Below, piece after piece: positions 59,147-59,731 of a stretch of DNA of 64,000 bases. Under the pieces are notes generated by a model. That model made no database searches and had not been told where the DNA came from. It saw only the letters and a program-made list of their open reading frames with translations. Source of the DNA: Terriglobia bacterium (lineage in GTDB: Bacteria > Acidobacteriota > Terriglobia > Terriglobales > Acidobacteriaceae); the NCBI GenBank assembly GCA_020073015.1, contig JAIQFZ010000006.1:124001-188000 (forward strand), read 5' to 3'. The translations under genes and the position numbers were made by a program. Each line of letters starts with the position of its first letter. The stretch's first letter is position 1.

Positions 59147-59731
59147 TCAACTCCCAATCTCCCTTACAGCGGTGAGCACATCCTCCAGCGGCGCCCGATC
59201 AGTCTGGTTCTCGCCCCGATAGATCCAGCGCACGATGCCGCTACGATCGATGACGAGCGTAGCCGGGTGCGCAATGTCGAAAGCGTCGAATCCGATGGCA
59301 TGATAGAGGCCATATTCCTTCGTCACGGCACGATCCTCATCGAGCAAGAACGGGAATGAGACCGGATGCTTCTCCAGAAACTTTCCTGGCTTCCAGAACC
59401 CGTCACGCCGTTCGGCGGCTACGTAAACCAATTGGACTCCCGCCTTGGCAATTTTCTGCTTCTGCGACTCGAACTGAGCCATGCGCTTCCCGCAGTTCGG
59501 TCACCAGGTGCCGCGCAGAAACTCAAGAATCAAGGGGCCGCCCTTGAGCAACCCGGCGAGAGTGAACGTCTCCGCGCCATGCGCCGCGGCCAGAGAAAAA
59601 TCCGGCGCGCGGGATCCGATCGTCAGAGTGTCCGTTCGGTTCAGCACCTTGATTCGACTGTAAGCCAGAAGAAAAACGGGAACAACGATGGAAAGGACAA
59701 GAGAACCATGAGAGTAATGCGGCCCGCACAT
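59147..59731 (-). CDS. Redoxin (peroxiredoxin-like) family protein, probable selenoprotein (UxxC, in-frame TGA)
   Basis: One frame of 195 codons from ATG 59731 to a TGA stop at 59147-59149, interrupted only by a TGA at 59501-59503 (residue 77). Before it the protein has a membrane helix ([14 protein letters not shown]) and the redoxin start [15 protein letters not shown] ... [11 protein letters not shown]. After it the fold continues with [49 protein letters not shown] and [19 protein letters not shown]. The TGA stands exactly where the first Cys of the CxxC motif belongs, giving U-P-N-C. I read it as selenocysteine, since both halves are intact and in the same frame. A hairpin follows the TGA. 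A nonsense mutation is the alternative. Membrane-tethered thiol/selenol redox activity is inferred. Confidence 0.82.
59470..59503 (-). promoter_or_regulatory. Candidate bacterial SECIS element after the in-frame TGA
   Basis: Starting two bases after the TGA, CGAACTG (59499-59493) pairs perfectly with CAGTTCG (59476-59470). Above it AGC/GCT gives three more pairs and an apical loop GCATG beginning 17 nt after the TGA with G in first position, with a 5-nt bulge on the 5' side. The loop G and the 16-37 nt spacing match the published bacterial SECIS consensus. The stem lies in the coding region, as expected in bacteria. Confidence 0.6.

Follow-up and report, generated by a model that had tools for sequence, protein, structure and literature searches.

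A conserved in-frame UGA followed by a SECIS-like hairpin points to a UxxC redoxin selenoprotein in Acidobacteriota

The window, a stretch of 64,000 nucleotides of DNA from an acidobacterium of the class Terriglobia, carries on its minus strand a redoxin frame that runs from 59731 to 59147 and contains a single internal TGA. With this TGA read as U the frame encodes 194 residues ending in GS. U is residue 77 of this long form and is flanked by LEFLRGTW upstream and PNCGKRM downstream. An earlier note on this DNA, which gave no strand, had described two redoxin halves in one frame with one TGA between them, and this arrangement was confirmed on the minus strand; the plus-strand translation of 59147-59731 contains no comparable redoxin. 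The coordinates of the gene, its signals and its neighbours are listed in Table 1. Of 38 redoxin loci, 29 contain a match to the divergent neighbour, which we take to be enolase (eno) from its sequence, and 27 a match to the downstream neighbour, a putative secreted protein; both counts include the locus of the window and the duplicate pair L024/L053.

Table 1. Features of the redoxin locus, in positions of the window.
Feature	Position	Strand	Details and basis
Redoxin CDS, predicted selenoprotein	59147..59647	minus	probable start GTG 59647-59645, 166 residues, Sec = residue 49, stop TGA 59149-59147; Pfam match, aligned start, alignment A1
In-frame TGA, very probably read as Sec, first residue of UPNC (W-U-P-N-C)	59501..59503	minus	TGA in 47/47 loci by codon and in L059
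TGC codon, second (putative resolving) Cys of UxxC	59492..59494	minus	Cys at U+3 in 47/47 loci
Upstream in-frame extension (proposed membrane tether), probably untranslated	59648..59731	minus	TAG/TAA in frame in several close relatives
Putative SECIS hairpin GGCUC-AGUUC-GAGUC, loop 59475-59471	59466..59480	minus	RNAalifold consensus, pair counts, synonymous resampling
Presumed enolase (eno), divergent neighbour	59841..61133	plus	kept beside the redoxin in many relatives
Putative secreted protein, downstream neighbour	58453..59073	minus (same strand)	ORF; secretion suggested by the N-terminus

The Pfam model Redoxin (PF08534) covers residues 39-186 of the 194-residue form as one stretch (1.1e-25, 90.6 bits against a gathering cut-off of 26.6). 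Since this match is continuous across the TGA, both halves of the protein are intact and in frame, as the earlier note had seen when it reported decay in neither of them; in the orthologues the second half is likewise intact. The AhpC-TSA model also matches (residues 38-169, 5.3e-24). The protein thus combines a PF08534 domain above the gathering score with the motif UPNC, the two marks of the UxxC type of this family. On the window protein all NCBIfam models stay below their cut-offs. The second-best match in that collection, and the best with a Sec-related name, is the SelL-related redox protein model NF040769, which aligns over 104 residues and scores 44.3 bits with the long form and 45.2 bits with the 166-residue form, far below its curated cut-off of 120. 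AlphaFold, run on the window protein in alignment with one relative, gave a model with a mean pLDDT of 39.8, which was set aside.

Orthologues were collected from genomes of the genus, the class and the phylum. Nine candidates per genome were scored, and the search profile had Cys at the Sec column so that Cys forms were not disfavoured. Within the genus 19 of 24 genomes contain an orthologue with TGA at the same codon. The class sample gave a match in 16 of 399 genomes at E <= 1e-40, each with one TGA, and the phylum sample in 19 of 396 genomes at E <= 1e-18, with one TGA in 18 of them and two in the remaining one. After removal of overlaps 48 distinct genomes with an orthologue were left, and all 48 loci have TGA at the site and Cys three residues further on. 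A codon-by-codon check demonstrated this for 47 loci from 47 genomes; the 48th, L059, reads W-U-K-N-C and had been missed by the motif pattern. A UxxU form was not present among the 48 loci, and no close Cys version of the clade was found in the genus, class and phylum samples searched. A scan of genome contigs with a single protein as query yielded just one relative, and 113 plasmid records contained only distant redoxins, all of less than 60% identity. Alignment A1, with 17 rows of 59-80% identity to the window protein, shows invariant columns on either side of the TGA. The loci L040 and L041 were left out of A1 and of the synonymous test (incomplete 5' ends), and L059 was left out of alignment A4 and of the hairpin test (UKNC motif). 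The more distant loci L073-L083 were left out of A4 and retained in the hairpin test. Two further loci were left out, L050 being the second fragment of a single gene and L054 the window's own locus; L053 and L024 represent the same gene. More remote homologues have a redox-active Cys in place of the in-frame UGA, namely ResA and Cys-bearing paralogues with the motif RGRWCPFC, which occur at eight loci of the genus with 31-34% identity.

The same loci were used to place the start codon. In-frame stops interrupt the stretch from the TGA back to the position equivalent to ATG 59731 in 9 of the 19 genus loci (one of which, L041, adjoins an assembly gap and is unreliable there) and in 11 of 17 wider loci. 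In 16 of the 19 genus loci, the window with GTG 59647 among them, an ATG or GTG precedes the TGA by 48 codons, and in L033 by 50. The extension upstream of this start is similar in several close relatives, yet carries an in-frame TAG or TAA there. ATG 59731 is probably not the start of the redoxin, and GTG 59647 is favoured. Given these stops and the aligned start at GTG 59647, the hydrophobic N-terminus of 28 residues is probably untranslated. The 166-residue form has no hydrophobic leader and for this reason is probably cytoplasmic. The designation "membrane-tethered" used in the earlier note was abandoned: as judged purely by comparison of the loci, with their stops and the aligned start downstream of ATG 59731, a translated N-terminal transmembrane segment is probably not part of the protein.

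The DNA from 59648 to 59720, which lies between the redoxin start and the divergent eno, resembles that of close relatives though it is noncoding in several of them due to in-frame stops, and it is perhaps promoter sequence. A sigma-70 promoter or terminator pattern was not detected at 59600-59900. Between the redoxin and eno, at 59734-59781, there is also an inverted repeat consisting of GTAGGGACAGCCGCC and its complement; the window contains no further exact copy of this 15-mer or of its inner 12-mer.

The RNA downstream of the internal UGA can form a hairpin of 5 bp with the loop AGUUC, whose first nucleotide lies 25 nt after the UGA. Using 36 sequences of 42 nt beginning at the UGA, RNAalifold proposed unprompted one single hairpin (columns 23-28 with 34-39, corresponding to 59465-59481 of the window) with a consensus energy of -7.54 kcal/mol. 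The core of this hairpin, columns 24-28 with 34-38, is standard-paired in 98.8% of cells, a value that none of 500 shuffles attained. One of the pairs occurs as A-U, G-U and G-C and another as U-A and once as G-C, while three pairs are invariant; the loop consensus is A-G-[U/G]-U-N. A rule for bacterial SECIS elements consisting of a geometry and an energy of -7.5 kcal/mol or lower is given in section 5 of PMC13188914. The hairpin has this geometry, which is also found after the terminal TGA of the window, and its energy in the window, -5.8 kcal/mol in the 42-nt context, falls short of the published value. With the scoring of the resampling test, 19 of 47 loci reach -7.5 kcal/mol and none of the 19 genus loci does. 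By the simple rule a hairpin is present in 44 of 47 loci, the exceptions being L055, L067 and L080. Compared with synonymous resampling, 26 of 47 loci are in the best 5%, and 20 of 47 are when segments elsewhere in the same gene serve as the comparison; the window is included in both groups. Among the distant members L073-L083, nine of eleven have hairpins of -7.5 kcal/mol or better, whereas that of L078 is weak and L080 has none. The stems of these members are quite different and their loops are AGUU, GGUU, GGU or GGG. At codons +2, +3, +8, +9 and +11 after the TGA the third base never changes in 17 sequences, although such synonymous conservation is not unique to this region, for 9 of 151 segments of the gene, this one counted, reach the same excess. 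Taken together, the hairpin is conserved and co-varying, and both its loop and its distance from the UGA are those of a bacterial SECIS. In the window it is energetically weak, and the simple rule alone does not discriminate.

The first candidate for the SECIS was a longer stem (positions 2-11 with 28-38) into which the UGA partly extends. It is the lowest-energy fold of a 45-nt segment of the window (-15.4), and it was rejected after the comparison, as it is paired in 91.8% of cells in contrast to 98.8% for the local hairpin, which RNAalifold also prefers with the 36 sequences. An Rfam search near the redoxin at a permissive threshold gave four matches, all of them below the gathering scores and taken as chance.

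According to the earlier note the gene also ends in TGA, so that a local signal is needed to tell the two codons apart. The terminal TGA is indeed present and the conserved hairpin follows the internal one, but as a distinguishing signal the simple hairpin rule does not suffice in the window. The idea that no hairpin follows the terminal UGA was dropped: the window has a G+C-rich one there (59147 and downstream, minus strand) that satisfies the simple rule and is not in common with its relatives. With identical scoring this hairpin has -7.6 kcal/mol and the one after the Sec TGA -5.2 kcal/mol, and because of it the simple rule cannot separate the two TGAs. A terminal TGA occurs at 22 loci; in 13 of them such a hairpin is missing, and -7.5 kcal/mol is attained nowhere but in the window. 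The stop codons provide a better argument. In 36 loci the redoxin ends with TGA in 22 cases, with TAG in nine and with TAA in five; since the internal TGA is invariant and the terminal codon is TAG or TAA in 14 of 36 loci, only the internal one would be recoded.

The earlier note had proposed a search of the same genome for selA, selB, selC and selD and had named their absence as an argument against a selenoprotein. All four genes were found in the assembly to which the window belongs (5.5 Mb, 245 contigs, 99% complete). The tRNA-Sec with the anticodon TCA scores 71 bits against a cut-off of 47, and selB scores 374 bits. The selD gene has itself an in-frame TGA and, 20 nt further on, a hairpin of 7 bp whose loop is GGU; the same arrangement of TGA and hairpin is known from other selD genes that encode selenoproteins. 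selA is present in two pieces on two contigs with a short overlap: one contig carries positions 137-451 at its start (417 bits), another positions 1-135 (120 bits). The frames of these pieces share the 13 residues TAAPGCPAERSSA and then part, and 2.4 kb before its end the second contig passes into unrelated sequence. The split is likely an assembly break or a misjoin at a repeat, and a whole selA is at best predicted.

Within the class sample selB was detected in 281 of 399 genomes (E <= 1e-70) and the redoxin, at the threshold used, in 16 of 399. The co-occurrence is modest, with selB in 15 of the 16 carriers versus 266 of the 383 other genomes (one-sided p = 0.026). The remaining carrier, G408, is 99% complete and contains selA but no selB beyond an EF-Tu-like match; an assembly gap or a recent loss is a possible explanation. 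Of the 24 genus genomes 20 have selB above the threshold, and in G005 and G009 the gene is in pieces. Five genus genomes have no orthologue of the redoxin (G008, G011, G013, G014 and G015), and three of these have selB; G011 (80% complete) and G013 (71%) have neither.

Judged from these comparisons, the internal TGA is very probably read as Sec at the active site of an acidobacterial redoxin. Lone in-frame stops are in general usually mutations or errors, and on this ground alone the TGA could be a nonsense mutation or an assembly error and the gene a pseudogene. However, the codon is the same in 48 of 48 loci, at identities to the window protein down to 59% in the 17 rows of A1, and its conservation together with that of the Cys at +3 in orthologous loci excludes chance or sequencing error. 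Decay downstream of the TGA in homologues, for which the earlier note had suggested to look, was absent, the second half being intact and the second Cys conserved. The probability of a pseudogene is thus negligible, in line with the view of that note that a random nonsense mutation is hard to reconcile with the gene. It could also be argued that translation yields two products, one a short peptide terminated at the UGA and the other a protein initiated downstream at the internal ATG 59482, as an ATG-started ORF of 111 aa (59147..59482) is available. Such a protein would be devoid of the first part of the fold and of the active-site PNC, and the Redoxin model as well as the invariant columns extend across the TGA, so that we regard two products as extremely unlikely.

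Read-through of the UGA by other means, with a near-cognate tRNA or by a programmed mechanism, would insert Trp or Cys rather than Sec. Near-cognate reading of UGA occurs in bacteria, G408 possesses the gene without a detectable selB, and the hairpin is weak and by itself does not separate the Sec TGA from the terminal TGA of the window. These points are outweighed by the Sec machinery genes in the genome, by the co-variation in the hairpin and by the Cys that ResA and the genus paralogues have at the corresponding position; moreover, Trp at this site would abolish the redox pair. We consider an insertion of Trp or Cys improbable. With high confidence we assign 59147..59647 to a redoxin-fold selenoprotein, probably cytoplasmic, with the internal UGA decoded as Sec, the hairpin as SECIS and the terminal UGA as a plain stop. 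The "probable selenoprotein" of the earlier note is supported by the Sec machinery, the TGA in 48 of 48 loci and the conserved SECIS-like hairpin. In the proposed mechanism SelB and Sec-tRNA would decode the internal UGA with the short hairpin 25 nt downstream acting as SECIS, and the terminal UGA would serve as an ordinary stop.

To describe the active site the protein was aligned with solved structures. In the alignment with ResA (3c71) Sec takes the place of the first Cys of GTWCPxC (CxxC), and the earlier note was correct in locating the TGA at the first Cys of a CxxC, which gives U-x-x-C with Cys at +3. The site G-T-W-[C/U]-P-x-C is shared with the ResA/TlpA oxidoreductases, but ResA is a membrane-anchored protein with Cys, whereas the window redoxin has Sec and probably no anchor. 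The best solved match, nearly full length at 2.2e-13, is to the Bcp-type peroxiredoxins 2cx3 and 4gqc. Here the residue aligned with Sec is the Ser/Thr of [ST]-x-x-C, and their Cys is matched by the second Cys of the redoxin; the Bcp-type proteins have the Ser of SxxC where the redoxin has Sec, and the Pro of the window protein stands opposite Arg in 2cx3. Peroxiredoxins are defined catalytically by PxxxTxxC and an Arg, and the combination of Thr/Ser three residues before a peroxidatic Cys with the catalytic Arg is not found in the redoxin. The term "peroxidatic", which the earlier note had offered for the TGA position, is not supported, since Sec aligns with the Ser/Thr of SxxC. The alignments with ResA and 2cx3 favour a thioredoxin-like U-x-x-C chemistry rather than that of a classical peroxiredoxin. 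Sec would be the attacking residue, and the Cys three residues later would resolve the selenenylsulfide. The protein probably works in disulfide or peroxide reduction with thioredoxin-type electron donors.

Redoxin-type UxxC selenoproteins are known in bacteria, as the earlier note had stated. Table 1 of PMC13188914 lists a "Redoxin family protein" (PF08534, UxxC, representative HEU0032618.1), and the excerpt of PMC9312934 catalogues a redoxin family with a UxxC motif (representative MBA3499694.1). The window redoxin shares with this catalogued family the Pfam domain and a single-Sec UxxC, a likeness drawn from the table entry. Both sources also list a Prx-like thiol:disulfide oxidoreductase (PF00578, UxxC/UxxU); likewise by table entry, the AhpC-TSA domain and UxxC are shared, whereas UxxU does not occur among the 48 loci. 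The available sections of PMC5029168 and PMC2398784 hold no closer match to the clade. For Acidobacteria, four selenoproteins of three families are reported in the excerpt of PMC1794560, and the excerpt of PMC12013277 gives three known selenoprotein genes for the acidobacterium Occallatibacter riparius. Among the titles of part of the matching open-licence papers, none concerned this redoxin clade. The window redoxin is very probably a true selenoprotein, of the kind already catalogued as "redoxin family, UxxC".

A well-supported selenoprotein is thereby added to Acidobacteriota. Gene calling with the standard code would truncate or split the redoxin gene, and with all NCBIfam models below their cut-offs on the window protein as well, existing annotations of the family are probably wrong wherever it is present. 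In the Acidobacteriota samples searched the clade occurs in the Sec form only. We tentatively suggest that it is Sec-only throughout the phylum (UGA in 48 of 48 loci) and that its active site may need selenium for a reaction beyond the reach of Cys, with most Sec-using relatives lacking the gene. A Sec-only family offers a natural test of the contribution of selenium to a UxxC site.

Further redoxins with TGA were observed outside this clade. Two genus genomes without the orthologue, G011 and G014, each contain another TGA UxxC redoxin (L043 and L044, respectively) with the motif FYRGYW-U-PxC, a hydrophobic N-terminus and 34% and 31% identity to the window protein. Across the phylum the loci L073-L083 represent more TGA redoxin subfamilies, with the motifs FHRGTW-U-PxC, FFRGxW-U-PxC and FYRGFW-U-GAC.
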